Source: Clostridia bacterium (GTDB taxonomy: Bacteria; Bacillota; Clostridia; Christensenellales; CAG-1252). From it: 64,000 nucleotides of DNA. The notes beneath the pieces were generated by a model. It was given only the letters and a program-made list of their open reading frames with translations, was not told the origin of the DNA and made no database searches. Location: the NCBI GenBank assembly GCA_017394805.1, contig JAFPXC010000012.1:1-64000 (forward strand), written 5' to 3'. This document shows positions 13,925 to 31,191 of this stretch, in pieces. Position 1 is the stretch's first letter, and each line of letters begins with the position of its first letter. The translations under genes and the position numbers were made by a program.

Positions 13925-15154
13925 TTATCCTCGTAAAGCGCACGTGAAAGTAATGACACCGTTTTCCCATTTTGCCGAGATTTCGCCGTGATATTCTTTG
14001 CAGATGTTTTCCGCGATGGACAGACCTATTCCGTAACCGCCTTTATCGATATTATGCGAGGTGTCCTGTCGATAAAAACGATCGAAAAATCTTGTGTAGT
14101 CCACGGTCGCACCATCCTTATAATCGTTGGAAACAGCAAGCGTCATCGTTTCTTTTTTGCCTTTGGACAAATAAACGGTTATCGTACCTTTTTCATCGCA
14201 ATACTTCATAGCATTGTCTAAAAGAATGGTGGCAAGTTGCCGTATTTTCCCTTCATTCCCTATCATAGAAAGGTTGTCTTCGATCTGTTTTACCAAAGAC
14301 TTTTCTTGTTGCGTAGCGACGGCGATATAGGTATCCGTCGTCTGTTCCACCGCGACGGAAACGTTGAACGGTACCGCTTTCTCTTCGGCGTTTGCTTTTT
14401 CGTCTGATTTGGCGATCATGACGAGATTTTTGATAAGTCCGTCGATGCGATCCACTTGTGCGAGCGTTGACTGGGTCCACTCGTTTTCGCCCGCCGTCAT
14501 TTCCAACAACTCGGTGTTGGCGCGAATAACGGCAAGGGGCGTCTTCAATTCGTGGCTCGCATTGGTAATAAATTCTTTTTGCCGACGATTGTTCTCGATC
14601 TCGGGGCGGATGGCATAGGCGGAAATCCGATAGATCAACAGAAACATTCCCATAAGAACGATGACGAAAATCGCTAAACTTAAAAAAAGAATACGATAGA
14701 TCATGGATAATTCGCTTTCGCAATTCAAAAGCACGATCGTATAGCTTCCGTCGGCATTCGTCGTCTTTTGGTAATAATAGCTGCCTTCGCGACCGAAATC
14801 TTTGTTGCCGCTTTGCAGTATTTCGGCACGCGAAATAACCTCTTCGGACACCTTTTCCGGCGTATTGGTGCGAACGGTATAGCTCCCGTCCTCTTTGAAA
14901 ACAAAGACATAAAAAAGATTGTTGCTTAGTTGCGGAGAGAAAATGTCGTCCATCGACGGCGCGGAAAAATTGTGCATTTGTTCTTGTACCGGTTGCTCGG
15001 AAAGTCCGTCCAACCGTTTATGAACGGACGATAAAGTAAAGAAAAATACGGACAGATTGATCGCCGTTACGATAAAAATCATAACGAAAAACAGGGAAAG
15101 CATTGCGATCCCAATAAATTTTTTTCTTAATCTCCGAATATCTGCCGCGTTCAT
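13925..15154 (-). CDS. Sensor histidine kinase (third pair of the island, canonical)
   Basis: A 409-residue membrane kinase: TM1 about residues 15-37, an extracytoplasmic region of about 115 residues, TM2 about 155-177, then HisKA with NASHELKTPL (phosphoacceptor His present), an N-box LLDNAMKYC, FDRFYRQD and the G2 motif GGYGIGLSIAE. The canonical G1 Gly pattern is weak, as in the other two kinases here. It follows the response regulator with a 4-base ATGA overlap and closes the synthetase-RR-HK operon. No recognisable sensor domain, so the signal is unknown. Confidence 0.92.
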   Translation of the reverse strand: MNAADIRRLRKKFIGIAMLSLFFVMIFIVTAINLSVFFFTLSSVHKRLDGLSEQPVQEQMHNFSAPSMDDIFSPQLSNNLFYVFVFKEDGSYTVRTNTPEKVSEEVISRAEILQSGNKDFGREGSYYYQKTTNADGSYTIVLLNCESELSMIYRILFLSLAIFVIVLMGMFLLIYRISAYAIRPEIENNRRQKEFITNASHELKTPLAVIRANTELLEMTAGENEWTQSTLAQVDRIDGLIKNLVMIAKSDEKANAEEKAVPFNVSVAVEQTTDTYIAVATQQEKSLVKQIEDNLSMIGNEGKIRQLATILLDNAMKYCDEKGTITVYLSKGKKETMTLAVSNDYKDGATVDYTRFFDRFYRQDTSHNIDKGGYGIGLSIAENICKEYHGEISAKWENGVITFTCALRG

Positions 15155-15825
15155 TTTTCCTCCGTTGTCAGTAAAAATTCACCGCCTTTTGTTCCGTTTA
15201 TGGTGACCGTTGAACCGACCGCTCTCAATTTTCCTTTCAGATACGATATATATAGCCATAAAGTATCGGCGTCGGCGTTTTCGTCTCTTTTCCACACCCT
15301 TTCCAAAAGTGTTCCGCTTGAAAGCGGCACGTCGGCGTTTTTCATCAAGACTTGCATCAATTCATATTCTTTAACGGACAATCGAATGGAATTCTTTGCC
15401 GAAAGTTCATAGTTATCCGGATCCAATTCCAATCCGCAAAAAGAGACTCGTTCCGTATTGTAATCCGAACTGCGTCGGCAAGCGGAGCGAATACGGGCAA
15501 GTAATTCTTTCATGGCAAACGGTTTTGGAAGATAATCGTCCGCGCCCGCGTCCAATCCCGCCACGCGGTCTTCGATCTCCGCCTTTGCCGTCAGCATAAT
15601 GACGGGCGAAGTGATATGCCTTTTTCTAAGTTCGGTGAGTACTTCCAGCCCGTCTTTTTTCGGCATCATGATGTCCAGTATTATGCAATCGTACGCGTTT
15701 GTTTTCAGGCGTTCAAGCGCTTCTTCTCCGTCAAAAACGCTGTCCACGTCATACTTTTCAATCGTCAGGGCGGTCGAGACCGCCTTATTGAGATCTTTCG
15801 TGTCTTCCGCAAATAAAATTTTCAT
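15151..15825 (-). CDS. OmpR/PhoB-type response regulator (canonical)
   Basis: A 224-residue regulator. The receiver has the acidic pair Glu7-Asp8 and the phosphoacceptor Asp51 in IILDIMMP, plus the switch Lys in LPKPF. The C-terminal winged helix (residues about 125-222) includes LSVKEYELMQVLM and the recognition-helix region DADTLWLYISYLKGKL. It starts one base after the stop of the alarmone synthetase and overlaps the kinase start by four bases, so the three genes are translated as a unit. Confidence 0.93.
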   Translation of the reverse strand: MKILFAEDTKDLNKAVSTALTIEKYDVDSVFDGEEALERLKTNAYDCIILDIMMPKKDGLEVLTELRKRHITSPVIMLTAKAEIEDRVAGLDAGADDYLPKPFAMKELLARIRSACRRSSDYNTERVSFCGLELDPDNYELSAKNSIRLSVKEYELMQVLMKNADVPLSSGTLLERVWKRDENADADTLWLYISYLKGKLRAVGSTVTINGTKGGEFLLTTEEK

Positions 15826-15826
15826 T

Positions 15827-16417
15827 CTACCATCCTCTGCTTTCTACTATCATATCGCGTATCGCCTGCATAGAAACGTCGGTAGACGCCAGTTCGTCCG
15901 CGCAACGTTTCAATTCAGCCTTGATAAGCTCCGCGTTTGTCACCACGTTCTTCTTGTATTTCAAGTGATGCTCGAGCGCCGCCCACGTGTCCATCGAGAT
16001 CGTCCTTAGTTGTATTTCCACAAAATACCCTTCCGCCGTCTTCAGGATCATATGATAACTCCTGTATCCGTTGGGCTTTACGTTACGGATATAATCTTTT
16101 TCGGTTACGATCTCATAATCGGGGAATGATCGAAGGTATTCCGCTACTTTATAAACGTCTCCGACAAACGCGCAAACGATCCTGACACCGATGGCGTCGG
16201 TCAATACGCGAAGCGCGCTCTCCGTGTTTTCCGGTAAGCCGTTTCTTCTGCACTTTTCGCGCATACTATCTTCCGCTTTGATACGGGAAAGACAATGTTC
16301 GATCGGGTCCATACCGTAGTTTTCGGTCAGATTTTTACGAAGAGCCTCTATCCTATCAAGGATATCTCCCATCGTCTTTTCCATTTTCGGCAAATGATCT
16401 CCGTAGATAGACTGCAT
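15827..16417 (-). CDS. Small alarmone synthetase, RelA/SpoT synthetase domain
   Basis: A 196-residue stand-alone (p)ppGpp synthetase (SAS class, as YjbM/YwaC). There is no hydrolase, TGS or ACT domain. Expected motifs: SRIKAEDSMREKCRRNGLP (ATP-binding basic region), DAIGVRIVC (Asp of the synthetase core), the G-loop KPNGYRSYHMIL and VEIQLRTISMDTWAALEHHL with the catalytic Glu. All key residues look intact, so it should transfer pyrophosphate from ATP to GTP or GDP. It heads an operon with a two-component system, which suggests alarmone output tied to an envelope signal. AAGGAG lies eight bases before the ATG. No convincing promoter was found; the TIR-bounded element ends 62 bases upstream. 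Confidence 0.9.
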   Translation of the reverse strand: MQSIYGDHLPKMEKTMGDILDRIEALRKNLTENYGMDPIEHCLSRIKAEDSMREKCRRNGLPENTESALRVLTDAIGVRIVCAFVGDVYKVAEYLRSFPDYEIVTEKDYIRNVKPNGYRSYHMILKTAEGYFVEIQLRTISMDTWAALEHHLKYKKNVVTNAELIKAELKRCADELASTDVSMQAIRDMIVESRGW

Positions 16418-16818: not shown

Positions 16819-19800
16819 TTAACCTACCGTGGTAGCGCGCGAACTCTGCGTCCACGTATAAGTAGTCGAACCGTTGGTGATCGTGTAGGTGCTACCGGTC
16901 GTAAACCCGGAATAACTCATCCACAGCCCTTTATACGTCGTGCCGAGCGTAAAAGTAAACAGCGTCGTACCCGAAGAATTCTTGACGTACCACGTCCCCG
17001 AAGAGAAGGAATACGCCGTAGAACTGCTGCTACCGGACGAGGAACTGCTTCCCGGTCTTCCGCCGCCTCCCGGACCACCCGATCCGCCTCCGCCCATACC
17101 GGACGAGCCGCAACTGAATTTCACATAACATTGCGATGAGCTTGAGGGTAATCCCGCAGGCGTACCGGCGCACACGAAGATACCCCCTGTGATCGTACAG
17201 GTACCGTCGATATCAAAACCGGACATATTGCCGCTGGTGTCACTCGTTGCGTCGCGAGTAATGACCGTACCGCCCGTCTGCGTATAATTACCGTTACTGT
17301 CAATACCGTCGGTATCGCCCGAAGGCACCGTTACGTCGAGCGTAGCTCCGGCGTAAACATAAATGCAAGGCGTATAAGAAGTCGTACCGGCAGAAGCGTT
17401 GATGCCGTCGTCATAAGCGTAGATCGTCGTCGTGCCGCCACGGAAATACAGGTAGACGGCTTGCATACCTTCGCGAGCGTAAGTAATATCGACCGTTCCG
17501 CCCGAGATCGTCGCCGAGTAATCGGCAAGAATGCCTTGGTCCATCGTATAGAGAGTTAAAGTACCACCGGAAACGGTGACCGTACCCGCGCCGTTGTCAT
17601 TGTTTGCGTGAATGGCGTCGTCATACGATTTGATATAGATCGTCCCACCCGATATCGTGATATCGTCATACGATTTGATACCCTTGGTCGAATCGGAAGA
17701 ATAGGACGTTTTCGTTACGGAAATCGTACTGCTCGAAACAGACAGCCTCAGCGCATTGTACGTACTCGTAAGGTAACTCGTCGAAGCAAGTGAAGAAGAT
17801 TTTGCACTGTACGAACTCGTCGAGGGTTCCGTCACGCTGCTTGTAAACCGATACACGGTAAAGTAGGTATACTCGGACGCGTACGACTTGAACTTATAGT
17901 AATAATAGGACGACTCGTACGTCTTATAGGTAGGCGTAACCCACGCGTAATCGGAAGATGAGTTGTAGAAATACACGGCATACCAATAGCTCGAAGAGTA
18001 AGAAGAAATCGCAAGGTAAGCGTCGCTCGATACGCCCGTATTGGTATAGGAAGAATAAGAGGACGTGTAGACGGTAATGCTTGTCGAAGACCCGCTTATA
18101 CTCACGCTGTCGCTTCCCGTAATGCCGTCGTACGCGGCGTAAACGGTAAGAGAACCGCCCGTTATGGTAACGTCACCGGAGGATGATTTTATCCCGTCGC
18201 CCGCATACGAACGAACGATGATTGTACCGCCGGAAACGTCTACGTCGCTTCCCGTAATGCCGTTGTCATAACTGTTGATTGTGATCGTACCGTCGGTGAT
18301 CGTCGTCGTACCGTCCGCCGCAATTCCGTCGTCTTCAGCAAGTTCTACCGTGACTATGCCGCCTGCAATCGTAATGTTTCCGTCCGTTGACAGTCCGCTT
18401 TCGAGCGTACCGGCATTGGCGTGGATACCGTCTTCCACCGCTTTGACGACTACCGTCGCATCGGTCAAGGTAATATTATTTGCCGATTTGATCCCTTTTG
18501 CCGAAGCGCCCGCCGTAGCGTACGTTCCCGTTTTCGTCGTCGCATAATCTCCGGTATAGACGTAGACCGTCGTGTCGGAACCGCTGATATTGACGTCATA
18601 AGCCGAGTCGATGCCGTCGCGATTGGCGTAAATATACACGGTGCCGCTCTCGATATCGACCGTACCTTCTTGGGTTCCAGAACTCTTCGTTCCGTTGTCC
18701 GAAGTCTGCAATCCGTCTCCGTCTTTGGCAATTGCGGTAACGACGGCGGAAGAACCGATCTCTATGGATTTTTCCCCTTTCAATGCGTCGTTGACTGCCG
18801 TGACGGTCAAAGTCACTTTCTTAATGGTAAGGTCTTTCTTGGTGTGGATACCGTTTTTGTATGTGCTTGAAATAATAAGCGTACCGGAGTCTTTCGTCAC
18901 GTTCAGATCGCAAGAAGAATACACCGCCGCCGAACCGTTACTGTACGTTCCGCTTGCGCTTCTCGTGTCGGAAAGCGTGTTCGTCGTACCGGCAACCGCC
19001 ACCAAATAAACTTTGTCGGCGTTGTTTACGTACACGACGGAATCGGAGGAATTGGCGATGGAAACGCCGTTCAAGTACAGATAAACGCTGTCGTCGTCAC
19101 CCGCGTTCACGTAGAGTTGCGCGTATTCCGCATCTCCGGAAATGTAATAAGAACCTGCGGTAGAAATGGTATAGACCTCGTATCCGTTCGTTTTGACGTA
19201 GGAGTACTCTCCGTCTTCGGTCGAGATTGTCAAAGAACCTTGCACCGCGCCGCAAACCGAGCAGACGCCGTTTTCGTAGTTATGTCCACTCGCCGGGATC
19301 GTTATATCGCCGACGGAAATATCTTCATGATCCACATCGAAATAACCGCCGCATACCGAGCAAGTATAATAGGCGATACTGCCGTCTTCCGTACAAGTCG
19401 CCGCAACAGCCGCATTCAACGAAGAATATGTATGTCCGGTCGCCGCGATCACGAGATCGTTTTCACTTACCGCGACGTACTCCTCGTTTTCATAAATAAA
19501 GAGGGTCTGACAGCCGGAACAAACGCAGAACGCTTTCGTACCCGTCGCTGTGCAGGTCGGAGAAACCGCGGCTACCATGTTGCTGTAATTGTGACCGTAT
19601 GCGGAAAGGGTGACGTCGGCAAGGCTGTCGCCGAGATATTCGCCGTCTTCGTCGTAATAGCACTCACAGATGGTACAATAACGATAAGATAAGTTTCCGT
19701 CCGTCGTGCAGGTCGGCGAAATCGCCGCCGTCGATTCGCCCGAATAACTATGGGCAAGAAGAGCGATCAAAATACCGCCGACGACATACTCCGCGTCGTT

Positions 19801-22023
19801 TTCCGAATATAATTCGTCATCGAAGAAACACTTGTCGCAAGTAGCGCAATACCAATATTCCACGTTTCCGTACGAAGTGCAAGTGGCACTCGTCGCGTCG
19901 TAATGCGTCAGATCGTGCCCGAGTGCAGACAACGTTTCGGTTTTGTTTTCCGCGTCCCGGTTGCCATACGTAGCGGTATACGTCCTGACACCCGACAAAG
20001 TGCAAGTCGGTGCCGTCGTGATCGAATTCGTCACCGTTGCGTCATAGTAAGCGACGTGTGAAGCGTCATGCGAGCAAACGTATTTCACTTGCGCCGTGTA
20101 GGCGTCCGGCATTAGATCCCATACGTATGAATCGAATATATAGTCGTGTCCGAGAGCGTTGACAGCTATCGCCGTGCGAGAAACTTCCGCTTCGCATACA
20201 GTGCAATAGACAACGCTGTCATAGCTTCCACTCGAGGTGCAAGTCGCTTCCGCAACGTTTTCACGGACTGCCTCCCCGTTCATATGCCCGAGAGCATTGA
20301 TCGTCATAGTTGTGCGGGATATTTCCTCCCCGCAAACGGTGCAATAAACGACGCTGTCGTAACTTCCCGCCGTCGTGCAGGTTGCGGCAACGATGTTTTC
20401 TTGCACGGCTTCCGCGCTTGTATGTCCTTTGGCTGAAACTTCGGTATAAACGGAAGAAAGAATGTCTCCGCAAACCGAGCAGTACGTCACGTAATCGTAG
20501 CTGCCCCCTTCGGTACAGGTATTTTCCGTCACGTTATCGTAGCGAACGGCTTGCGTATGAGAAGGCGCCGCCAAAACGGTATTTTCCTGCAAAATTTCGT
20601 TTTCGGAATAAGTGCCGTCGTCGGTAAAATACCTTTCGCAAACGGAACAATACCAATACTCGATATTGCCGTCGGCACCCGATCCCCGGCAGGTAGGCGC
20701 CGTATAGGGATAATGCGTGAACGTATGACCGAGAGCCGGTATCGTTTCCGTTGTATTTTCGGCATCTTCTTCGGCGCACGTGGCCGTATACATTCTGACG
20801 CCCGCTACGGTGCAAGTCGGTTCAACGGTGACGGAAGAAAGGACGTCCGCTTCGACAAAATAGAAATGTTCTTCGTCGTGTACGCAAACGTATTTTGCCT
20901 GCGCGGCATAATCACCCTCTATACTCATATCCCACACGTATGCGGAAAACTCATAGTCGTATCCGAGCATAGAAAGAACCGTCCGGTCAAGCGTCGTTTG
21001 ATTTTCTCCATCCGCATCGGTAAAATATTTTTCGCAAACAGAGCAATAATAATAGTCGATATTGCCGTCTTCCGTACAAGTCGCTGCCACTCCTTCCGTC
21101 TTTTCCATCGTATGCCCGAGAGCGGGAATAATGGTTGCGCTTTGACTTGGGAAAGGCGTATAATTGCCGTCCATAAAGTACACGTCGCAACGGTCGCAAT
21201 GACGATATTCGTAATTGCCGTCTTCCGTACAAGTGGGCGCGACGGCTTCTGTGAGCGTTACGTTGTGTCCAAGCGCGGCGATCACGACGCTTTCCGCGTC
21301 GGTATAGGCGGTCGAATAGGAGCCATCGTCCGTCAGATACTCTTTACACCGAGTACAATACCAATATTCCGTATGTCCGTCTTCCGTACAAGTGGGGGCG
21401 GTCTCGGTATAGTTGACAAGAATGTGCCCGGTTTTTGCGATTATTAGATCCTCTTCGCTGTTTCCGATCGTCTTTCCGTAGCTATCAATATAATATTCGC
21501 ACACGGGACAAACGCGATAACCTTTGACGCCGTCCGTCGTACAGGTCGCAGAGACCTTCGCCACCCATTCTCCCGTGGCAACGTGACCGGTCGCAGCAAT
21601 TTTGACACCGTCTGAAGTCGATTTGTTTTGAGAAAACGTTTCGTCGTCCAAATAATATCCGCCGCACGTTTCGCAGTACCAGTATTCAACGTTTCCCTTT
21701 TCTGTACAAGTCGGTTCGGCAGCGTCCGCGTGCGTCGTAAACGTATGCCCGGTCGCCGCGACGGTGACGGCAGACAGCGTCGTCTCATTTTTCGCGGTTT
21801 CGTCCGAATAATACTTTTTACAATCGGAACAATACCAATATTCTTTACTCCCACCCGTTGTGCAGGTCGCTTCTACCGCCTCGTGATGAACGAGGGTGTG
21901 AGTGTGCGATGAGGACGACGTACTCGTCGTCCCCAATTGACAGCCGTAGAATAAAAGCACGGACAGCAGTATCGTTACCGATAAAAGAAATACCGACTTC
22001 GGAGATATTTTATATTTTTTCAT
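16819..22023 (-). CDS. Giant surface lipoprotein: 16 Cys-ribbon repeats plus a Cthe_2159-type beta-helix
   Basis: 1734 residues. A signal peptide ends in the lipobox LLFYGC (Cys28) and a Ser/Thr-rich linker follows. Residues 46-914 hold 16 repeats of 44-78 residues with the core PTCTEDG-x3-YWYC-x2-C...ALGH, each with three Cys and a closing His; two variant repeats (356-433, 627-703) lack the C-x2-C pair. From about 930 to 1630 runs a Ser/Gly/Asp-rich right-handed beta-helix resembling the Cthe_2159 carbohydrate-binding family (DGIKSSSGDVTITGGSL type rungs). A Gly-rich hinge and a 75-residue C-terminal beta unit end the protein. AAGGAG precedes the ATG, and the 40-base gap to DUF4956 suggests the same operon. 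Probably a cell-surface adhesin or polysaccharide binder; the ribbons may bind metal. Confidence 0.85.
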   Translation of the reverse strand: MKKYKISPKSVFLLSVTILLSVLLFYGCQLGTTSTSSSSHTHTLVHHEAVEATCTTGGSKEYWYCSDCKKYYSDETAKNETTLSAVTVAATGHTFTTHADAAEPTCTEKGNVEYWYCETCGGYYLDDETFSQNKSTSDGVKIAATGHVATGEWVAKVSATCTTDGVKGYRVCPVCEYYIDSYGKTIGNSEEDLIIAKTGHILVNYTETAPTCTEDGHTEYWYCTRCKEYLTDDGSYSTAYTDAESVVIAALGHNVTLTEAVAPTCTEDGNYEYRHCDRCDVYFMDGNYTPFPSQSATIIPALGHTMEKTEGVAATCTEDGNIDYYYCSVCEKYFTDADGENQTTLDRTVLSMLGYDYEFSAYVWDMSIEGDYAAQAKYVCVHDEEHFYFVEADVLSSVTVEPTCTVAGVRMYTATCAEEDAENTTETIPALGHTFTHYPYTAPTCRGSGADGNIEYWYCSVCERYFTDDGTYSENEILQENTVLAAPSHTQAVRYDNVTENTCTEGGSYDYVTYCSVCGDILSSVYTEVSAKGHTSAEAVQENIVAATCTTAGSYDSVVYCTVCGEEISRTTMTINALGHMNGEAVRENVAEATCTSSGSYDSVVYCTVCEAEVSRTAIAVNALGHDYIFDSYVWDLMPDAYTAQVKYVCSHDASHVAYYDATVTNSITTAPTCTLSGVRTYTATYGNRDAENKTETLSALGHDLTHYDATSATCTSYGNVEYWYCATCDKCFFDDELYSENDAEYVVGGILIALLAHSYSGESTAAISPTCTTDGNLSYRYCTICECYYDEDGEYLGDSLADVTLSAYGHNYSNMVAAVSPTCTATGTKAFCVCSGCQTLFIYENEEYVAVSENDLVIAATGHTYSSLNAAVAATCTEDGSIAYYTCSVCGGYFDVDHEDISVGDITIPASGHNYENGVCSVCGAVQGSLTISTEDGEYSYVKTNGYEVYTISTAGSYYISGDAEYAQLYVNAGDDDSVYLYLNGVSIANSSDSVVYVNNADKVYLVAVAGTTNTLSDTRSASGTYSNGSAAVYSSCDLNVTKDSGTLIISSTYKNGIHTKKDLTIKKVTLTVTAVNDALKGEKSIEIGSSAVVTAIAKDGDGLQTSDNGTKSSGTQEGTVDIESGTVYIYANRDGIDSAYDVNISGSDTTVYVYTGDYATTKTGTYATAGASAKGIKSANNITLTDATVVVKAVEDGIHANAGTLESGLSTDGNITIAGGIVTVELAEDDGIAADGTTTITDGTITINSYDNGITGSDVDVSGGTIIVRSYAGDGIKSSSGDVTITGGSLTVYAAYDGITGSDSVSISGSSTSITVYTSSYSSYTNTGVSSDAYLAISSYSSSYWYAVYFYNSSSDYAWVTPTYKTYESSYYYYKFKSYASEYTYFTVYRFTSSVTEPSTSSYSAKSSSLASTSYLTSTYNALRLSVSSSTISVTKTSYSSDSTKGIKSYDDITISGGTIYIKSYDDAIHANNDNGAGTVTVSGGTLTLYTMDQGILADYSATISGGTVDITYAREGMQAVYLYFRGGTTTIYAYDDGINASAGTTSYTPCIYVYAGATLDVTVPSGDTDGIDSNGNYTQTGGTVITRDATSDTSGNMSGFDIDGTCTITGGIFVCAGTPAGLPSSSSQCYVKFSCGSSGMGGGGSGGPGGGGRPGSSSSSGSSSSTAYSFSSGTWYVKNSSGTTLFTFTLGTTYKGLWMSYSGFTTGSTYTITNGSTTYTWTQSSRATTVG

Positions 22024-22063: not shown

Positions 22064-22756
22064 TTACAGACTTTTTGCGTCATCTACGTACGGAAGTACA
22101 CTGATCTCAAGGTTCCCGTTGCGAATGCGCAGTTCGTCGATCATTTCTTTTTCTTCCGCGGGATTTTTCATCACGATACGATACGATAGCCTGAACATAC
22201 TTCCCATGCCGGTGGTCTTTACGCCCACCATCTCGTGTTCTTTGAGATAATGCGTAAAGGTGGCGTCAAAGACGTCGGAATAATTAAGCGTTTCGGGAAT
22301 AGTGATCTTAAGCAGTTTTTCCCGCGCAAATTTCTTGCTTTTGAAGATCGGCAAATAAGACAATCCAACGTATAATCCGCCGAAGAGGAGCAAACTGATC
22401 GCGCCGTATGCGGCGTATCCCAACCCGAAAACAAGTCCCGCTACCACCGTGCCGAGCAAAGTCAGCATCTCTTCCGCTTTTCCGTTGGTCGAACGGAATC
22501 TGACAAGCCCAAGCGCAACGGCGATGGTCGCTATTCTCGATACCGTTTCCGTCGCTCCGGTAAGAAAAGTTCCCAAAAGGCAAATGGCAATGGATACCAT
22601 CATCGGCATAAGCGCAAGCGTAATAAAAAATCCTTTGGATGATCTTTGCCTGCGTGAAACGATAAAAGCATACAACACGCCAAAAACAAGCGACAGCCCT
22701 ACCATTAAAAACACCATACCCACGGTCGTTCCGTTTGTAAAAATCGAATTAAACAT
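22064..22756 (-). CDS. DUF4956 membrane protein
   Basis: 230 residues, starting at MFNSIFTNGTTVG, whose ATG has AAGGAG at good spacing; a longer reading would start inside the VTC gene. Hydrophobic segments at about residues 12-33, 43-64, 73-90 and 100-125 make a small polytopic domain, followed by a cytoplasmic part of about 100 residues. The segment GLVRFRSTNGKAEEML is typical of DUF4956. Family members occur repeatedly beside VTC-domain proteins, which fits the 19-base gap to the VTC gene here. A membrane partner or channel for the VTC product is a reasonable inference, not an established role. Confidence 0.85.
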   Translation of the reverse strand: MFNSIFTNGTTVGMVFLMVGLSLVFGVLYAFIVSRRQRSSKGFFITLALMPMMVSIAICLLGTFLTGATETVSRIATIAVALGLVRFRSTNGKAEEMLTLLGTVVAGLVFGLGYAAYGAISLLLFGGLYVGLSYLPIFKSKKFAREKLLKITIPETLNYSDVFDATFTHYLKEHEMVGVKTTGMGSMFRLSYRIVMKNPAEEKEMIDELRIRNGNLEISVLPYVDDAKSL

Positions 22757-22775: not shown

Positions 22776-23486
22776 TTACTTACCAAGCACTCTGTATGCT
22801 TGTCTTTTGTACGCTTCACCGTATTTGGAAAAGCTTGCTTTGTATATCTTTCCTTCCGCTAAAATCGCGGACAGCCACAACGGCATGGCTTCTTGTACTT
22901 TGACCTCGAGAATGGTTTGTCCTTCTTTAAGAAGAGACGTTCCTTCCATCGAAGTCGTAAGGTTCAGATCTTGTACGCGATACCTCGGATTGTGATCGAT
23001 GGTAAGACGCAAGTCGCCGTCCCGTTCAAAATAGGCGATGCGGTCGTAGATAATGAGACACGCCGGGACAAGGACTTTGTAATAATCGCGGAAATATGAT
23101 ATTTCCCTTGCTATCTGTCCGTCTGCGCAAATCTCACCGTCTCCCCGAAAAAAGGCTTCCACGTTGGGAATCGTACTGGAGACCCTACGCTTATAGACGA
23201 TCTTGTCCGTTTTCCGCTTGAGTTCGAGAAAGACGGGGCTTTCATTCGTCGCAATTCCGTAAGACCGTAAGCGAATTTTCTCTTTGAACGGCGGTTTTTC
23301 GATGGACGCGCGTATCAGTCGATAATCGGACGTGTCGTAGTAAAGGGAAGCAATAGACGTCAAACCGTATTTATCCATCTCCATGTGTCCTACGAGTCGT
23401 TCTTTCAAAAACGCCGTCTGCTCGGCGGAAAGTATGTACTTCATCTCATATCGTTTCATAACGACGATGGGCTTTTCTTTTGCCAT
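22776..23486 (-). CDS. VTC-domain (polyphosphate polymerase-like) protein
   Basis: 236 residues, essentially one VTC catalytic domain (triphosphate tunnel fold, as yeast Vtc4, which makes polyphosphate from ATP). Tunnel-lining charged residues appear in the expected order: KRYEMKYIL, SLYYDT, KEKIRLRSYG, VFLELKRK, VYKRRV, YDRIAYF, LRLTID and ILEVKVQEAMPLWL. There is no SPX domain and no membrane segment; the DUF4956 protein encoded next may supply the membrane part. It follows the degenerate kinase gene by 10 bases. Whether bacterial VTC proteins make polyP in vivo is not settled to my knowledge, so the name describes the fold and its intact-looking active site. Confidence 0.88.
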   Translation of the reverse strand: MAKEKPIVVMKRYEMKYILSAEQTAFLKERLVGHMEMDKYGLTSIASLYYDTSDYRLIRASIEKPPFKEKIRLRSYGIATNESPVFLELKRKTDKIVYKRRVSSTIPNVEAFFRGDGEICADGQIAREISYFRDYYKVLVPACLIIYDRIAYFERDGDLRLTIDHNPRYRVQDLNLTTSMEGTSLLKEGQTILEVKVQEAMPLWLSAILAEGKIYKASFSKYGEAYKRQAYRVLGK

Positions 23487-23496
23487 ACTTACCTCC

Positions 23497-24753
23497 TTAC
23501 AGTTCGATTTTCAATCGGAACAAACCGTCCTTTATCTCCGCGCTTATCCGTCCGCCGTGCAGCGTTACGATCTCTTTTGCCACGGACAATCCGAGTCCCG
23601 CTCCGTCCAAACCGCTTTCTCTGACTTCCGGACTTCTCCAAAATCTTTCAAAGACACTATCCAAAGGACCGTCTTCCAGCCCGACCGTGTCGTTGACGAA
23701 TTCCATCACGACGCGGGCATCTTCTTTCTTCAACCGTACTTCTACTTTGCTATGCGCATAATCGACCGCGTTTTTCAAAGAAACGGATAGCAATCTTTCG
23801 ACGGCTGCTTCGTCTCCCGTCAACGTCACGCCATTTTCAATATCTGCGTCGATTATCTTTTCTTGCTTTTGCGCTTCGCTTTGGTTCAAGGATACCGTTT
23901 CCGTCATCATTTGGGATAAATCGATTTCTTTCCATTGTGCCTTCGGCGACGCGTTCTCGATCAAAAGAAGCGTGTCCAATCCTTGTACCACTTTCGTCAG
24001 GTGCTTGGTTTCCCTCGCGATCATCTGTGTTTCCTGCGTCTCGCCTTGCTTCTTTTCCAAAGTAAGACGTAATGCGTCGATGGCTACGATGGGATTTTTC
24101 AGTTCAAACGCCGCGTCTTCGATAAAGCGTTTTTGCTTTCTGTCGCTCTTTTCCACGGGATCGGAAACGATCCTTGCCACGTATATAAGCACAATCAACG
24201 TGATCAGCATTCCCACGGCTTCGCCTATGCAAGAAGCAATCAATACCCGATACGAAGGCAGAAGTTCTCGTGATTGGTCTATGACGGTCACCGAGATCGT
24301 ATCTCCGTTTTGCCACACGCGGTAGCGGTAATAGGTTTTCGTCCACCCGCTTTTCTTGTCTGTCAGCGACTTTGCCCATTCCACGGCGGTTTCCTCGTTG
24401 ACGGCATTCATACGGATCGTTTCATTTACTACGTTACCGCCTTGGTTGAACGTGATCGTAAAGAAACGTGTCGTCTGACTCAGTTCTGGAGAATCGGGTC
24501 CTTTCGGTCCGCGCGGATCGAAATTATTTTCTTGCGGCGTCTGGGGACGATCTCCGTTTGACGTTTCTCCGCCCGGCACGCTATTATCCGAAAAAGTCCC
24601 GCCTTCTCCAACCATACGGTCGAGTATCCTGTCGGCGTCGGACGCGACCAAAGAGAAATTTACGAGATTGATGACGAGAAGGATTGCCGTCAGCAAGGTA
24701 AACACCGACAAAAGCGAGGTGATTATGAATTTTTTTCGCAATTTTTTTATCAT
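23497..24753 (-). CDS. Histidine kinase-like protein lacking the phosphoacceptor His
   Basis: 418 residues: TM1 about 12-35, a Pro/Gly/Asp-rich extracytoplasmic loop, TM2 about 170-195, then the HisKA/HATPase layout. The H-box reads DAAFELKNPI: the His is Phe216 (codon TTT at 24106-24108, two changes from CAT or CAC), and the usual Thr is Asn. The N-box region LLSVSLKNAVDYA and the G2 motif GAGLGLSVAKEIV remain, so ATP binding is possible, but autophosphorylation at the normal site is not. It overlaps its regulator by ATGA and precedes VTC by 10 bases. Likely a pseudokinase that works by conformation or by pairing with another kinase. The sister kinases at 13.9 and 27.3 kb keep the His. Confidence 0.9.
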   Translation of the reverse strand: MIKKLRKKFIITSLLSVFTLLTAILLVINLVNFSLVASDADRILDRMVGEGGTFSDNSVPGGETSNGDRPQTPQENNFDPRGPKGPDSPELSQTTRFFTITFNQGGNVVNETIRMNAVNEETAVEWAKSLTDKKSGWTKTYYRYRVWQNGDTISVTVIDQSRELLPSYRVLIASCIGEAVGMLITLIVLIYVARIVSDPVEKSDRKQKRFIEDAAFELKNPIVAIDALRLTLEKKQGETQETQMIARETKHLTKVVQGLDTLLLIENASPKAQWKEIDLSQMMTETVSLNQSEAQKQEKIIDADIENGVTLTGDEAAVERLLSVSLKNAVDYAHSKVEVRLKKEDARVVMEFVNDTVGLEDGPLDSVFERFWRSPEVRESGLDGAGLGLSVAKEIVTLHGGRISAEIKDGLFRLKIEL

Positions 24754-25325
24754 ACGCTCACCACCTTATATCCGTTTTCGGAATAGACGATTTTTTGTTT
24801 TTCCCCGATTTTCGATAGGCGTACATTCGTCGCCCGAACGAATGCCAATACACTTCCCGCGTCGTCCGGGACAAACTCCTTTATTCGATCGCCGGATAGA
24901 ACACTCTCTTTTTTCAAACCGGCCATCAGTTTTCTTTGCTGAAAAAGAAGATTTTCATAGTCTACGGGTTTTTCATCTATCAACGCCTCGACAAGTGCGA
25001 TCAATTTTTGCGCCGAAAAAGGCTTCGGGATCAAGGCGTCCATACCGTATCCGTCGGACAAGTCTTTTTCGTTTATTTCCGATTGGGGCAGGATACCGAT
25101 CGCTTTGATCGATACCCCGCGTTGTTTTGCCAGATTTACAAGCGTCGCCCCGTCTATACGCGGAAGTTGGGTTTCGGCTATCAGCAAGTCATACGATTTA
25201 TTTGCCAAACGTTCCAGTGCCTGCACGCCGTCGTTGGCGGCATCCGCTTCTATGCCATACTCCGTGAAAAGTATTTGCAAGGAAGTAGCAATCGATCGAT
25301 ATTGTTCTGCAAGTAAAATCTTCAT
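24750..25325 (-). CDS. Response regulator-like protein with Asp-to-Glu receiver and shortened winged helix
   Basis: 191 residues, starting at MKILLAEQYRS (ATG at 25325 with AAAGGAG upstream); the longer open frame would run into the lipoprotein gene. The receiver aligns position for position with the canonical regulator at 15.2 kb, but Asp51 is Glu51 (LLIAETQLP, codon GAA at 25173-25175) and the acidic pair is Glu7-Gln8. Switch Lys101 (IPKPF) is kept. The DNA-binding half is about 30 residues short: a winged-helix end is visible in LAFVRATNVRLSKIGEKQK and ENGYKVV, but the N-terminal strands are reduced. Glu may mimic the phosphorylated state, so it could be always on, or be a protein-protein adaptor. 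Confidence 0.88.
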   Translation of the reverse strand: MKILLAEQYRSIATSLQILFTEYGIEADAANDGVQALERLANKSYDLLIAETQLPRIDGATLVNLAKQRGVSIKAIGILPQSEINEKDLSDGYGMDALIPKPFSAQKLIALVEALIDEKPVDYENLLFQQRKLMAGLKKESVLSGDRIKEFVPDDAGSVLAFVRATNVRLSKIGEKQKIVYSENGYKVVSV

Positions 25326-25338
25326 GATTTTATCTCCT

Positions 25339-27096
25339 TTATCGCAAGGTCGCTTGTCCCCCGTCGCTGTAGACGACGCAACCGCCCGCACTGTACTTAA
25401 GCGTTACGGAATAACTTTCTTCTCCGACCGTTACCGTATGCGTGCCCGCTGATACGGTGGAAGAGGAACAAGTCGTTTTGGTCATCCCCGACGTAGTAGG
25501 CGTATTTTCCATTCCACCGAAAAGAATCAACGTACCGCCTTGCAACGTAATGCCTTTATCGGTATCCAATGCCCAGGAGCCTCCACCCATTCCGCCGGAA
25601 ACGCTTCCCGGTCCGCAAGCAATCACAACACCGCCCGTTTGGGTATACGTTCCGTTTGAATCAATACCGTCGGTATCTCCGTTTGTCGGCACAGTTACGA
25701 ACAAATATCCGCCGCTGACAACGATGGTCGGATTGTTATCAACGGACTTGCAAGCATTGATACCGTCGTCGGTTCCGAAAATGGTGCTGTTGCCGCCCGA
25801 TATCAGGATATGATCGGCTTCAAATCCTTCGTATGCACTGTCCACATGGATAGTTCCGTCCGTGATCGTCAAAGTATTGTCGGCATGGACGGCGTCGCTG
25901 CCGCTGACCGACTGTTGATTACTCCATCCGCCGGGGCCCATTTTTCCGCTCGCCGTACTTTTTGCCGGAGAATAAACGCCGATCGTGATCGTGCCGCCGT
26001 TTATATTGATGTTACCGTTGCCCGTATTCCCATTTTCGAGTATCGTTCCGTAATCTGCGTGCAAGCCGTCGTCAAAGGAATAAACGCTGATCGTTCCTCC
26101 GTTTACCGTCAATTCGTTGGCGACTTTGATACCTTTATAAGAAGTCGTGCTTGCGTCGCTTGCGGTATAAGAACTGTAAGAGCCCGTATAGATCGACAGG
26201 CTGCCGCCGTCCATTACGAAGTCATAACTTGCCTGGATGCCGTCGCCCGCCGCATAAACCGCCAAGGTGCCATCCGTGATTGTTACGGTGCCGCGCTGCT
26301 TTCCTTTGGAAGACAGATCTGTTTTTTCGGTCTTGATACCGTCACCTTTGGTAGAAATCGCTACGATGTTCCCGCTCTCTACGGTCACGGAATTGTTTCC
26401 TTTCAACGCGTTATTTACCGCGGTCACTTTCAAGGACAAATTCTTGATGGTCAAATCCTTCTTCGTATGCACGCCGTTGTTGTAGCCGGCTTCGATAACG
26501 AGAATACCGTTACCTTTAAGTTTCAGGTCGCAGTTCGCGTAGATCGCGCCTTCTCCTTGCGATTCATCATCCGCTATTTTTGCGGAACGGGTATCCTTAA
26601 TAACATTTTCGGTATTCTTCTTTGCCGATATCTCGACCTTGTCCGCGCTGATTGCCTTAATAGGGGAATCGTTGGAACATGTGATGGTAACGCCGCTAAG
26701 TTCGATCTCGATTTCGTCGTCTTCGCCGGCATCCACGAGTATTTGTCCGTTCAAAGAACCCGAAAGCGTGTAGGTTCCCGCTTTACTGATCGTATAGACG
26801 CCGTTTGATTCGCTATATTCGCCGTCCGCCGTTTCGATAATGAAATCACCCGTCGCTTCCGTCACACTATCGAACGTGGAATCGCTTGCCGCGTCTTCCG
26901 TGATGATTTCGACAGATGAATCACTTGTCGTATCGGTGGAATCACTCGTCGTATCTTTCACGACCGAATCATCGGAAGAACTTGTCGAGGTATTGGTTTG
27001 CGTATTTGTACTCCCATTCTGCACACCACAACCGACAAGCGCTACCGTACAAACAATCACCGTTATGATCGTTAAAACCCATAAACATTTTTTCAT
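25339..27096 (-). CDS. Cthe_2159-type beta-helix lipoprotein
   Basis: 585 residues. Signal peptide with lipobox ALVGC (Cys23), a Ser/Thr/Asp linker to about residue 80, then a beta-helix with many short Gly/Asp/Asn rungs (YNNGVHTKKDLTIKN, GDGIQASYDFVMDGGS, DDGLHADYGTI, DTDGIDSNGTYTQTGG). The family is typified by Clostridium thermocellum Cthe_2159, a calcium-dependent polysaccharide-binding beta-helix. The C-terminal 60 residues resemble those of the giant lipoprotein's helix domain. First gene of the operon running on to pseudo-RR, pseudo-HK, VTC, DUF4956 and the giant lipoprotein. A promoter with a PhoB-like operator precedes it. Confidence 0.88.
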   Translation of the reverse strand: MKKCLWVLTIITVIVCTVALVGCGVQNGSTNTQTNTSTSSSDDSVVKDTTSDSTDTTSDSSVEIITEDAASDSTFDSVTEATGDFIIETADGEYSESNGVYTISKAGTYTLSGSLNGQILVDAGEDDEIEIELSGVTITCSNDSPIKAISADKVEISAKKNTENVIKDTRSAKIADDESQGEGAIYANCDLKLKGNGILVIEAGYNNGVHTKKDLTIKNLSLKVTAVNNALKGNNSVTVESGNIVAISTKGDGIKTEKTDLSSKGKQRGTVTITDGTLAVYAAGDGIQASYDFVMDGGSLSIYTGSYSSYTASDASTTSYKGIKVANELTVNGGTISVYSFDDGLHADYGTILENGNTGNGNININGGTITIGVYSPAKSTASGKMGPGGWSNQQSVSGSDAVHADNTLTITDGTIHVDSAYEGFEADHILISGGNSTIFGTDDGINACKSVDNNPTIVVSGGYLFVTVPTNGDTDGIDSNGTYTQTGGVVIACGPGSVSGGMGGGSWALDTDKGITLQGGTLILFGGMENTPTTSGMTKTTCSSSTVSAGTHTVTVGEESYSVTLKYSAGGCVVYSDGGQATLR

Positions 27097-27230: not shown

Positions 27231-27257
27231 AAAAATCCGCCCGATCTTTTCGGGCGG
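27231..27257 (-). terminator. Terminator of the canonical RR-HK operon
   Basis: A perfect 8-bp GC-rich stem (27237-27244 with 27250-27257) followed on the minus strand by ATTTTT. It sits 25 bases after the kinase stop and just upstream of the operator of the next operon, so the two operons are separate units. Confidence 0.8.
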
Positions 27258-27281
27258 ACCGATTTAAGCCTGTGATCCAAA

Positions 27282-28553
27282 CTAATTTTTGTGAGGGAAG
27301 GTAACGATAAATGAGATTATTCCATTCTTGTATTCCGCACGTATATTACCGCCGTGTCCTTCCGCCACTGCTTTGGCAATGGATAGTCCCAGTCCGTAAT
27401 GCGCCCCCGCTTCGTTTCGGGATTCATCCGTACGGTAAAATCTATCAAAGAGGTGGGACAGTTGTTCTTCGTCTATTTTGTCCGCAACGTTTGACGCGGA
27501 AAGAATGGCGGCGTGTTTTTCCGTTTTCAGCGATAACCGTATTGTTTCGCCTTTTCCGTGAGAAAGCGCATTGTCGAGAAGGATGGAAACGAGTTGTTTC
27601 AGTTGAGTGGCGTTTCCATGAATATGCAATCCTTTTTCTATAGAAAGATCAAGTTTTTTTCCTTTTTCAAAAGCAAGACTCTCGAAAGGCAAAGCCTCTC
27701 CCTCGACAAGCTGTGAAAGGTCGATTATATCTTTGGGCAGATCGCCGTTTTCCGCACGGGAAAGCGAAAGCAACTGTTGCACCAATTCGGACATTTTCTC
27801 ATTTTCATAATCGATATTGGCGAGCCACTCGTTGCTTCCTATTTGTCGTTTCAATAATTCACTGTTGGCGGAAATAACGGCGATGGGCGTTTTCAATTCA
27901 TGCCCGGCGTCGGAAACGAACCTCTTTTGTTTTTTGTCGTTTTCTTCCATCGGTCGAACGATCTTCCGCGCAATCAATATAGATATGCCTGCAAGCACTA
28001 TCAATGCTCCGCCGCCTATACCCATCATCACCCACAGGAGTTTTTTCTGATTGTTTTCGCTGATCGTACCGTCTATCATCGCAACAAGCATACAGTCGCC
28101 TTTATCGGTGACGAGATAGTATAAACTACCGATACGACCGGTCTCTTTACCCTTCGAGCGCGCCGTAGCGGCAACCTTCAATAACTCTTCTTCACTTTGC
28201 AAATCGTTGCCACCGTTGTCGATAGAGAGAACTTCTCCCGATTCTGAATACGCTACCGAATAAAAAGTAGAAAGCCGAAAAGCGGGTTCGTTTTTATCAA
28301 TTCTACCGTTATCACGCGGTTCGGGCGGGATCGTCGTCGGCGGTTCGGTATTGTTTTCGGGTTTGTCTCCCTTCTCGATACCCGGTTGATCTTCGAGAGA
28401 GTAACGCTCCGCGTATGTCCGTAGCATCTCTTCGTTTTCCCGTTGGATTGTCAAAAGATTGGAAAGGTAGATTGTTACAAGCGTTATCGTCATCAACGCG
28501 AGTAGGGAAAAGACTATGGCAAAAACGATTTTTCTTTTCGATTTATTGAACAT
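27282..28553 (-). CDS. Sensor histidine kinase (first pair of the island, canonical)
   Basis: 423 residues: TM1 about 10-31, an extracytoplasmic loop rich in Pro, Asp, Glu and Asn (about 120 residues), TM2 about 160-180, then HisKA with SDAGHELKTPIAVI (His present), N-box LLDNALSHG, FDRFYRTDES and G2 HYGLGLSIAKAV. Its start overlaps the regulator's stop by 11 bases (ATG inside the last codons), so the pair is translationally coupled. The sensor loop has no family match; its charge would suit sensing of cations or cationic peptides, but that is speculation. Confidence 0.92.
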   Translation of the reverse strand: MFNKSKRKIVFAIVFSLLALMTITLVTIYLSNLLTIQRENEEMLRTYAERYSLEDQPGIEKGDKPENNTEPPTTIPPEPRDNGRIDKNEPAFRLSTFYSVAYSESGEVLSIDNGGNDLQSEEELLKVAATARSKGKETGRIGSLYYLVTDKGDCMLVAMIDGTISENNQKKLLWVMMGIGGGALIVLAGISILIARKIVRPMEENDKKQKRFVSDAGHELKTPIAVISANSELLKRQIGSNEWLANIDYENEKMSELVQQLLSLSRAENGDLPKDIIDLSQLVEGEALPFESLAFEKGKKLDLSIEKGLHIHGNATQLKQLVSILLDNALSHGKGETIRLSLKTEKHAAILSASNVADKIDEEQLSHLFDRFYRTDESRNEAGAHYGLGLSIAKAVAEGHGGNIRAEYKNGIISFIVTFPHKN

Positions 28554-29226
28554 CTTTGCACCTCAACTCGTATCCCACGCCGCGAATGGCTTTTATCTCA
28601 CACCTCGAGCCTACAAAAGCGAGTTTTTTTCGCGCAAAGGACATATACACTTCCACATTGTTGTACTCGGCTTCGTTTTCAAATCCCCATATTTTGACGG
28701 CAAGCTGTTCGCGAGTCAGAACACGCCCTTGATTTGCTATGAGATATTCCAGTATTTTTAATTCTTTTTCGCCGAGGCGTACATTGTTGCCGTTTTTGCA
28801 ACGTAACACGGCGTTTTTTACATCGAGAGTCAGATCGTCATACGTCGGATTTCCGTCGCTGGTCGGAACCCCGCGTCGTAAATGCGCCCGTACCCGCGCC
28901 AATAATTCCCTCGTCATAAAGGGTTTGGTCAAATAGTCGTCCGCGCCGCTGTCCAGGCCCTCGACCTTGTCGTCGAGTTCGCTTTTCGCCGTCAACATAA
29001 TGATCGGCGTGCGCACGCCCGCGTTGCGCGCTTTTCTCGCCACGTCATACCCATTTAATCCCGGCATCATAACGTCGAGCACGATCAGATCGTATACGCC
29101 GCTCTCGATATAAGAAAGCGCGTCGTTCCCGTTTTCGACGGAATCAACGTCATACCCTTCTTGTCGAAGGATCTCGCATAACGCGCGATTCATTCTCTTT
29201 TCATCTTCTGCGATCAGTATTTTCAT
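28543..29226 (-). CDS. OmpR/PhoB-type response regulator (canonical), likely controls the island
   Basis: 227 residues. Receiver: Glu7-Asp8 acidic pair, phosphoacceptor Asp51 in LIVLDVMMP, switch Lys in LTKPF. Winged helix from about 130: LGEKELKILEYLIANQG, LAVKIWGFENEAEYNNVEVYMSFARKKLA and GVGYELR. It is the first gene of its operon, preceded by TTCAATC-type direct repeats and a perfect TATAAT. The same repeats stand before the lipoprotein-VTC operon, which makes this regulator the natural candidate for both autoregulation and activation of that operon. Confidence 0.94.
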   Translation of the reverse strand: MKILIAEDEKRMNRALCEILRQEGYDVDSVENGNDALSYIESGVYDLIVLDVMMPGLNGYDVARKARNAGVRTPIIMLTAKSELDDKVEGLDSGADDYLTKPFMTRELLARVRAHLRRGVPTSDGNPTYDDLTLDVKNAVLRCKNGNNVRLGEKELKILEYLIANQGRVLTREQLAVKIWGFENEAEYNNVEVYMSFARKKLAFVGSRCEIKAIRGVGYELRCKDVQ

Positions 29227-29388: not shown

Positions 29389-31191
29389 TTAAAATGTTTG
29401 GGTACTATTGTCCTTGTCGAAGTCAACTTTAACTACGATATGACTGTCCGGAGTTTTGTGGGAAAGTTGAACCAGCGTTTCCACATGCCTTGTCTGCGGA
29501 AACATATCGTAGGGGCGCACTTCGTCGATTGCGTACGCCGTTTGGAGCGAGGCAAGGTCGCGCGCCAAGGTTGCGGGATTGCAGCTTACGTACACCACGC
29601 GTTCGATATAGGGCAAGGTCACCCAATCCCAACACTCGTTGCAGAGAGATTCGGCTTGTCCTCCCCGTTTGGCCAATTCCACCAAAGCGTCCACCACCGA
29701 GGCGGGGCACCCTTTCCTCGGCGGGTCCAGCACCACCGAGATACCCTCGGCGTTGACAGGTTCCACATTCAAGGCCACAGCGCCATGGGCGGCCTGCTTC
29801 TCCTCGGGATAAATGGTCGCCATACTTGCCGCGGCTTCTTCCGCACTCATATCCTCTCCGCAGGTCTCGGCGGTACCCAAGGCCGCGAACAGTTCGCCGA
29901 ACGAAGCGAATTCGCGCTTTTCCGTCACGCGGCAATACAGTTGCCGCCCGTCCGCGGCGAACCGAACGAGGTCGCCCACGGCCACCGCCTTTCGTTTTTC
30001 GTCCGCCAAGCGCAATTCGTACTTTTTCCGCCCCTCGGCGATGGCGTCCCAATAGGGCTTTTGCAAATGCATATCGTGCACTCGCGGCGTTTTTTTGCGT
30101 ATCTCGTCCAGCACTTGGGGCAATAGCACCGCGCTATCCCCCAAGAGGTTATGTTCCTCTACGCCGTTTTCTCGGGCCACGCGGTCGGCGTCTTCCACCG
30201 CCTCGGGGACGATCTCGATATTATACACGTCCGCACCCGCTTTGGCGAACGAGGCACCCAACGCCCCCACACCCGCGAAGGCGTCCACCACCGTCTTTCC
30301 CTTCTTCGGCTCGACGGCGCGGCGCACCGCTTGGTATATCTCGGCGCATATCTCGTCGTTGACTTGCAAAAAGCTCAGCGGGTTGACCGCCACCCGTATA
30401 CCCTCCACGGTATGCGCGTACGGCTCGCCCCACCTCAAATATATCTCGTCGCCCATAATAACGTTGTTGTGAAGCAAATTGGGGGATACGTATAGGCAAA
30501 AATCCTGCCATTCCGCCGAGAGCGCGTTCACGTATTCCGTCCAATGCGGCAGGCTTCTGCCGTTGACGACCAGTACCACGTCGATATGTTCGCCCATCTT
30601 TCTGGCGACCAAATGCCGCAGTAGACCCACGCGTTTTTCGCCGTCGTACACGGTTAGACCGTAGGTCTCCGCGTACTGCAACGTGGCGGCGATGATTTTC
30701 TCCGCCCATTCCTCGTGCAAGGGACAGCGGCTTATGCGCACCACCTTATGCGTACCCTCGCGGTAAAAGCCCAAGGCGGTCTTCCCTTCCACCACGCCGA
30801 ACGGCAAGGCTATCTTGTTGCGGTAGCCCAACGTCTTGGGCGAAGGGACCGTGGGCGCTACGTCCGCCGTCACGCCCGCTTTGGCAAGGGTGGTCGCCAC
30901 CAGGTCGCGCTTGACGGTCAGTTGGTAGTCGTAGGCGGCGTGCATCAAATCGCACCCTCCACACTTGCCATACTTGGGGCACACGGGTTTTACCCGCTCG
31001 GGCGCAGGCTCTATCACCCGCATCAAAGTCGCGTACGCCAGGTTCTTTTTGACGTGATTGACCTTCACCTCGACCTCTTCTCGGGGCAAGGCAAACGGCA
31101 CGAACATGGTATATTCCCCCGCTTTCGCTATGCCCTCGCCCGCGTACCCCACGTCGCGGATATGCACTTTCAACACGTCGTCCTGTTTCAT
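29389..31191 (-). CDS. rlmD: 23S rRNA (uracil-5-)-methyltransferase RlmD/RlmCD type with an inserted ASCH domain
   Basis: 600 residues, versus about 450 in the family. N-terminal TRAM domain (1-60); iron-sulphur ligands Cys71, Cys77, Cys80 (CPKYGKCGGC) and Cys156; SAM-binding VVDAFAGVGALGASF (301-315); catalytic LDPPRKG (488-494) and nucleophile Cys537 in VSCNPAT; DMFPQTRHVE. Between the SAM fold's GDSAVLLPQVLDEI and the DPPRKG strand sits an extra segment of about 110 residues (371-479) with the look of an ASCH RNA-binding domain: MHLQKPYWDAIAEGRKKYEL, RLADEKRKAVAVGDLV and GELFAAL. A smaller insertion follows at about 508-528. The methyltransferase motifs are complete. It probably methylates 23S rRNA U1939 and/or U747. 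Confidence 0.9.
   Translation of the reverse strand: MKQDDVLKVHIRDVGYAGEGIAKAGEYTMFVPFALPREEVEVKVNHVKKNLAYATLMRVIEPAPERVKPVCPKYGKCGGCDLMHAAYDYQLTVKRDLVATTLAKAGVTADVAPTVPSPKTLGYRNKIALPFGVVEGKTALGFYREGTHKVVRISRCPLHEEWAEKIIAATLQYAETYGLTVYDGEKRVGLLRHLVARKMGEHIDVVLVVNGRSLPHWTEYVNALSAEWQDFCLYVSPNLLHNNVIMGDEIYLRWGEPYAHTVEGIRVAVNPLSFLQVNDEICAEIYQAVRRAVEPKKGKTVVDAFAGVGALGASFAKAGADVYNIEIVPEAVEDADRVARENGVEEHNLLGDSAVLLPQVLDEIRKKTPRVHDMHLQKPYWDAIAEGRKKYELRLADEKRKAVAVGDLVRFAADGRQLYCRVTEKREFASFGELFAALGTAETCGEDMSAEEAAASMATIYPEEKQAAHGAVALNVEPVNAEGISVVLDPPRKGCPASVVDALVELAKRGGQAESLCNECWDWVTLPYIERVVYVSCNPATLARDLASLQTAYAIDEVRPYDMFPQTRHVETLVQLSHKTPDSHIVVKVDFDKDNSTQTF

Follow-up and report, generated by a model that had tools for sequence, protein, structure and literature searches.

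What can a two-component pair do when neither of its proteins keeps the residue that would carry the phosphate? The question is raised by two adjoining genes in a 64,000-nucleotide stretch of a Clostridia bacterium genome (assembly GCA_017394805.1, contig JAFPXC010000012.1, positions 1 to 64,000; hereafter the window), which encode a histidine kinase without its phosphoacceptor His and a response regulator with Glu in place of the phospho-Asp. Our best reading, to which we give a probability of about 0.45, is that they form a conserved pseudo-two-component module, receptor-like and independent of phosphotransfer, that is tied to an operon for a VTC-domain protein. The two genes and their substituted codons are the following.

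23497..24753, minus strand: pseudo-histidine kinase of 418 amino acids (translation, Pfam, alignments, AlphaFold2, Foldseek), with two transmembrane helices, an extracytoplasmic sensor, a DHp domain with Phe216, and a CA domain with the N box and G2 (GAGLGL) kept
24106..24108, minus strand: TTT codon of kinase Phe216, at the phospho-His position (translation)
24750..25325, minus strand: pseudo-response regulator of 191 amino acids, an OmpR-type receiver with a degenerate C-terminal winged-helix remnant
25173..25175, minus strand: GAA codon of regulator Glu51, at the phospho-Asp position (translation)

The H-box of the kinase reads FIEDAAFELKNP, with Phe216 replacing the phosphoacceptor His, and Pfam recognised HATPase_c in the protein, with HisKA absent. 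The AlphaFold2 model (mean predicted local distance difference test score, pLDDT, 85) showed two transmembrane helices, a sensor, and a DHp/CA core, and its best Foldseek matches were CpxA and HK853. As a HisKA/HATPase fold without the catalytic His, the protein belongs with the pseudo-histidine kinases, and it lacks the phosphoacceptor His by which the kinase of a canonical two-component system is defined. A His does occur elsewhere in the DHp region, at H252, but the alignment showed that it is not conserved among relatives, which makes a shifted phosphoacceptor unlikely. The genome contains no closer copy, the best paralogue sharing 33% identity.

The receiver motif reads LLIAETQLP, with Glu51 for the phospho-Asp and Gln8 for the acidic-pair Asp; Lys101 is retained, and the Thr of the switch position is absent. 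The protein falls among the aspartate-less receivers (PF00072 fold without phospho-Asp; Response_reg, E = 2.4e-13), and Glu51 and Gln8 place it outside the canonical receivers with a phospho-Asp and an acidic pair. Response_reg was its only Pfam match, with none for Trans_reg_C (PF00486). In the AlphaFold2 model (mean pLDDT 86), which Foldseek matched to OmpR/PhoB proteins, the receiver is well modelled (block means 93–98 across residues 1–80); the C-terminal part has lost its N-terminal beta-sheet and its helix 2 is down to four residues, with a recognition-like helix and a hairpin remaining. The kinase and regulator genes overlap as ATGA, and both frames are intact. Much of this had been proposed in a preliminary description of the locus. 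Translation bore out Phe216 (TTT), Glu51 (GAA), and Gln8, and the intact frames and the ATGA overlap also held. For the description's "shortened winged helix", "degenerate remnant" is the better term, given the missing N-terminal sheet and the four-residue helix 2.

Is the defect peculiar to this copy? A survey of six genomes of the genus found an orthologous pair in two others, G003 and G005, and a VTC search across the order found one in a different family, G241. When public genomes were scanned with an alignment of the kinases, these three came up again along with two more, L104 in the Acholeplasmatales metagenome-assembled genome (MAG) RUI049 (JAILEP010000030.1) and L105 in the Erysipelotrichaceae MAG RUG11704 (CACXYG010000048.1). 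The named records of the first three are L101 for G003 (RUG14300), L102 for G005 (SRR873610_bin.24), and L103 for G241 (RGIG4983). Counting the window, the clade has six members; two of them were found through the kinase sequence alone, and the remaining members were also recovered by the kinase scan. Kinase identities to the window protein were 50% (G003), 51% (G005), 48% (G241), 45% (L104), and 40% (L105). Sampling 391 genomes across the class and 396 across the order brought no additional members; in these samples the members all scored higher than 660 bits, and the kinase that followed them scored 335. The degenerate pair is carried by gut bacteria of several families, in at least three taxonomic groups. 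The kinase and VTC protein of L104 closely resemble their counterparts in the genus of the window, yet its contig is assigned to Acholeplasmatales, which suggests either transfer of the module between classes or a misbinned contig; the low GC content of the L104 kinase gene (34%) favours a genuinely different host.

The residues and codons at the two phosphoacceptor sites of the six pairs are as follows.

Window: Phe (TTT) at the His site, Glu (GAA) at the Asp site
G003: His (CAC), Glu (GAG)
G005: Phe (TTC), Glu (GAA)
G241: Tyr (TAC), Glu (GAG)
L104: Asp (GAT), Glu (GAG)
L105: Phe (TTC), Asp (GAT)

None of the six pairs had both phosphoacceptors. Among the canonical comparison set, His was present in all 49 other extracted kinases of the family and Asp in all 48 partner regulators. 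The phosphoacceptor defect, as read from these sequences, is a property of the clade. Because at least one phosphoacceptor is absent in every one of the six pairs, no kinase of the clade can carry out His-Asp transfer to its own regulator, and the phosphorelay independence suggested earlier extends, within the pair, to six genomes. The N box was kept in all six kinases. Glu occupied the Asp site in five of the six regulators and Phe the His site in three kinases, so that of the two substitutions whose fixation the preliminary description had asked about, Glu largely held and Phe (F, H, F, Y, D, F) did not. That description had also named orthologues with His and Asp as the case that would point to a decaying copy or a sequencing error; half of this case turned up, in that the same-genus G003 has His, its partner still carrying Glu. 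Six genomes, from three or more taxonomic groups, have the same degenerate pair before VTC-DUF4956, which makes it unlikely that a single copy is simply decaying. Sequencing error was ruled out by the recurrence of the pattern across six separate assemblies. The L105 pair (3820–4191 and 4188–5432) consists of a receiver-only regulator with Asp, acidic pair, Thr, and Lys, and a kinase with Phe in which the adjacent Glu has become Asn; it may represent an intermediate stage.

The six kinases formed one clade with a Shimodaira–Hasegawa-like approximate likelihood ratio test (SH-aLRT) support of 100, in a tree built with the phospho-His column excluded. At least four changes were needed at the phospho-His site on this tree, and the His of G003 was sister to a Phe. 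The history of the residue may comprise a basal loss followed by a return in G003, or several independent losses, between which the tree does not distinguish. The clade was also grouped in the regulator tree, which was excluded from polarity inference owing to its low support (57) and long branches.

Sequence identity within the clade was 45% for the DHp region, compared to 66–76% in canonical groups, and 46% for the sensor, compared to 35–39%. The first transmembrane helix reached 69%, compared to 44–62% in the three canonical groups with enough data. The extra constraint is gone from the phosphotransfer part of the kinase, and the sensing part has kept its constraint. Identities at the three codon positions were 0.56/0.67/0.31 for the kinase and 0.42/0.59/0.29 for the receiver, versus ~0.35/0.45/0.27 in shuffled-codon controls, in a comparison that is alignment-based and a modest test. 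If both genes were non-functional and decaying, the loss of catalytic residues, including the G2 changes in G005 (GTGIRL) and L104 (GMGLSL), and the absence of the pair from one sister genome would be accounted for. We regard this as highly improbable given the intact frames and coding constraint across six diverged lineages (their kinases 40–51% identical to that of the window), in which the sensor is also conserved better than in canonical groups.

The regulator has evolved about ten times faster, with end branches of 1.4–9.6 against a median of 0.15, while those of the kinase were 0.4–1.0 against 0.46. Receiver identity was 32% in the clade, compared to 62–76% in the larger canonical groups, and identity of the C-terminal part was 22%, compared to 63–65%. 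Trans_reg_C was recognised in none of the six regulators, even at an E-value of 0.1 for the five relatives, and the DNA-binding part was degenerate in four and missing in two (L081 and L105). Such long regulator branches beside ordinary kinase branches, together with the eroded DNA-binding part, would be expected if the pseudo-kinase needed no regulator, serving by itself as a VTC/DUF4956 receptor or as a structural partner in the membrane, and the regulator were a passenger slowly being lost. This main rival is in our view rather unlikely, as all six members have an unbroken regulator frame that overlaps the kinase start or adjoins it, codon periodicity survives even in the C-terminal remnant, and Glu51 and Lys101 belong to the mere 13 positions that do not vary across the five Glu receivers.

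Where receivers lack the Asp, Glu is the residue found most often in its stead (26%), and it can imitate the phosphorylated state (PMC4395418); it is possible that Glu51 and Lys101 would hold an active-like pocket. These properties, with Lys101 retained, would also suit a regulator that Glu51 locks in a phosphorylated-like state as a constitutive, ChxR-like DNA-binding regulator of the operon, the kinase being vestigial. The chance of this is very small: the winged helix was unrecognised in all six regulators and missing in two, the C-terminal identity is far below that of canonical groups, and of the two proteins it is the kinase that is better conserved. Gene regulation by the regulators is unlikely because their DNA-binding domain is degenerate or absent. 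That Glu serves as a phosphomimetic transcription switch is likewise improbable in so fast-evolving a regulator, with its DNA-binding part reduced and, in two members, missing.

The pair lies between the following genes, as had been described.

22064..22756, minus strand: DUF4956-type membrane protein, next after the VTC gene
22776..23486, minus strand: VTC-domain protein, polyphosphate polymerase-like (Pfam PF09359, E = 5.5e-41), directly downstream of the kinase gene
25339..27096, minus strand: Cthe_2159-type carbohydrate-binding lipoprotein (Pfam PF14262, E = 9.6e-72), 13 bp upstream of the regulator gene

The name DUF4956 is that of the preliminary description; Pfam gave no match for the window protein, and its homologues agree in position and sequence. 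The gene order regulator-kinase-VTC-DUF4956 was found in all six members, with VTC directly downstream on the same strand; among the 48 canonical pairs, three adjoin a VTC gene in this way (p = 3e-6, Fisher's test, which assumes an independence that the pairs do not have). The VTC and DUF4956 proteins of the six members fell in one small region of their trees, shared with a few pair-less loci. At locus L052 of the same genus (G001:C11, 4556–5900), the lipoprotein and the canonical pair upstream of it were present and the degenerate pair was absent, and the G001 VTC and DUF4956 genes had several frame breaks. This single genome fits a joint loss of the pair and VTC/DUF4956.

Judged by these comparisons, both genes of the pair still look coding and constrained and remain arranged with VTC-DUF4956, and no phosphate can pass from the kinase to its own regulator. 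The pair thus probably signals through contact or has taken on another role. For the pseudo-two-component module that we favour, the kinase would be a membrane receptor whose selected function is carried by the sensor and the first membrane helix. Its cytoplasmic DHp/CA part would offer a docking platform to which the pseudo-receiver binds, Glu51 and the retained Lys101 possibly giving the latter a built-in active-like shape. The module would then alter the activity of the co-encoded VTC/DUF4956 membrane machinery through contact, as DivL uses a repurposed kinase core. Direct control of VTC/DUF4956, which we infer from the invariant gene order and the one G001 locus, is the weakest step of this mechanism. 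Several observations weigh against such a module. The poor conservation of the regulator, in the receiver as in the C-terminal part, would result from a lost function as readily as from a changed one. G003 retains the canonical His and L105 the canonical Asp, chemistry that could serve outside partners. The VTC gene of L105 is frame-broken, and most of the VTC-DUF4956 loci inspected had no two-component genes nearby, so the pair is not generally required for VTC-DUF4956. A bolder version, in which the whole pair gave up phosphotransfer, now works as a receptor that gates the VTC/DUF4956 membrane enzyme by direct contact, and moved from one bacterial class to another as a single unit, is conceivable but doubtful.

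Other features of the region include the canonical pairs that served for comparison.

27282..29226, minus strand: canonical regulator-kinase pair upstream of the lipoprotein, Asp and His kept
13925..15825, minus strand: second canonical regulator-kinase pair, Asp and His kept
27234..27260, minus strand: terminator-like hairpin between the lipoprotein gene and the canonical pair upstream of it, 11 pairs, 7 of them GC (consensus scan)
16819..22023, minus strand: Cthe_2159-type lipoprotein of 1734 amino acids, downstream of DUF4956 (Pfam PF14262, E = 1.4e-76)

Canonical paralogues thus flank the pair on both sides, as stated previously. This setting, the retained kinase fold and CA domain, and the same mode proposed for CmrT (PMC12632262) would agree with modulation of a canonical system, the pseudo-kinase forming heterodimers with a canonical neighbour such as 27282–29226 or the pseudo-receiver competing for it. 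We consider this quite unlikely, as the window kinase shares only 25–30% identity with the neighbouring kinases and no canonical pair adjoins the degenerate pair in the retrieved stretches of G003, G005, G241, L104, and L105. The consensus scan found 15 terminator-like hairpins in the region, compared to 10.7 expected, the one at 27234–27260 being the strongest; it points to separate transcripts for the canonical pair at 27282–29226 and the lipoprotein. Many Cys-containing repeats (type YWYC..C) precede the Cthe_2159 domains of the 16819–22023 lipoprotein. A RelA/SpoT-domain protein of 196 amino acids, small alarmone synthetase-like (15827–16417, minus strand; Pfam E = 1.8e-31), is encoded directly upstream of the 13925–15825 pair and abuts it as if in one operon. 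An RlmD-like uracil methyltransferase of 600 amino acids (29389–31191, minus strand; TRAM, tRNA_U5-meth_tr) has an ASCH domain at residues 374–479, between methyltransferase stretches.

How does the pair compare with known systems? DivL of Caulobacter has a Tyr at the phosphoacceptor His position. The kinases described here resemble it in having a kinase core without that His, with the same Tyr in G241. The DivL core has been repurposed as a sensor that reads a receiver (PMC4211667). DivL, however, binds a phosphorylatable receiver (DivK~P), while the co-operonic receiver here has Glu in five of six members and VTC-DUF4956 as neighbours. The regulator shares a receiver fold without phospho-Asp with the aspartate-less and pseudo-receivers ChxR, RitR, CmrT, and FrzS, but it is paired with a degenerate kinase, and its own DNA-binding domain is degenerate or lost. 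A VTC-like polymerase and DUF4956 as neighbours recall the accessory set of cotH, polyphosphate polymerase, and DUF4956 beside Gram-positive pel loci (PMC7112168); the neighbourhood of the pair showed no pel genes, and has Cthe_2159-type lipoproteins instead. The canonical OmpR-family regulator/HisKA kinase pairs beside VTC (L094, L109, L110) have the same kinase family, sensor type, and regulator-kinase-VTC order, but keep His and Asp, with strongly conserved DHp and winged helix-turn-helix domains.

A recent review reported a missing His in 0.9% of HisKA domains and a missing Asp in 2.0% of receivers (2025; PMC12632262), so that both defects would be expected in about 1 in 5000 pairs if they were independent. 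Our literature search, with most subscription papers outside its reach, found no conserved co-operonic bacterial pair that combines the two defects. Pseudo-kinases and pseudo-receivers have been described singly, and characterised pseudo-receivers are nearly always orphans; how bacterial pseudo-receivers switch has been called a mystery (PMC12632262). The matched pair, together with an Asp-keeping member, a His-keeping member, and canonical relatives in the same setting, forms a natural series for the order of the losses and for what remains of such a system without phosphotransfer. The pair also gives a handle on the bacterial VTC-DUF4956 loci, which have hardly been studied.
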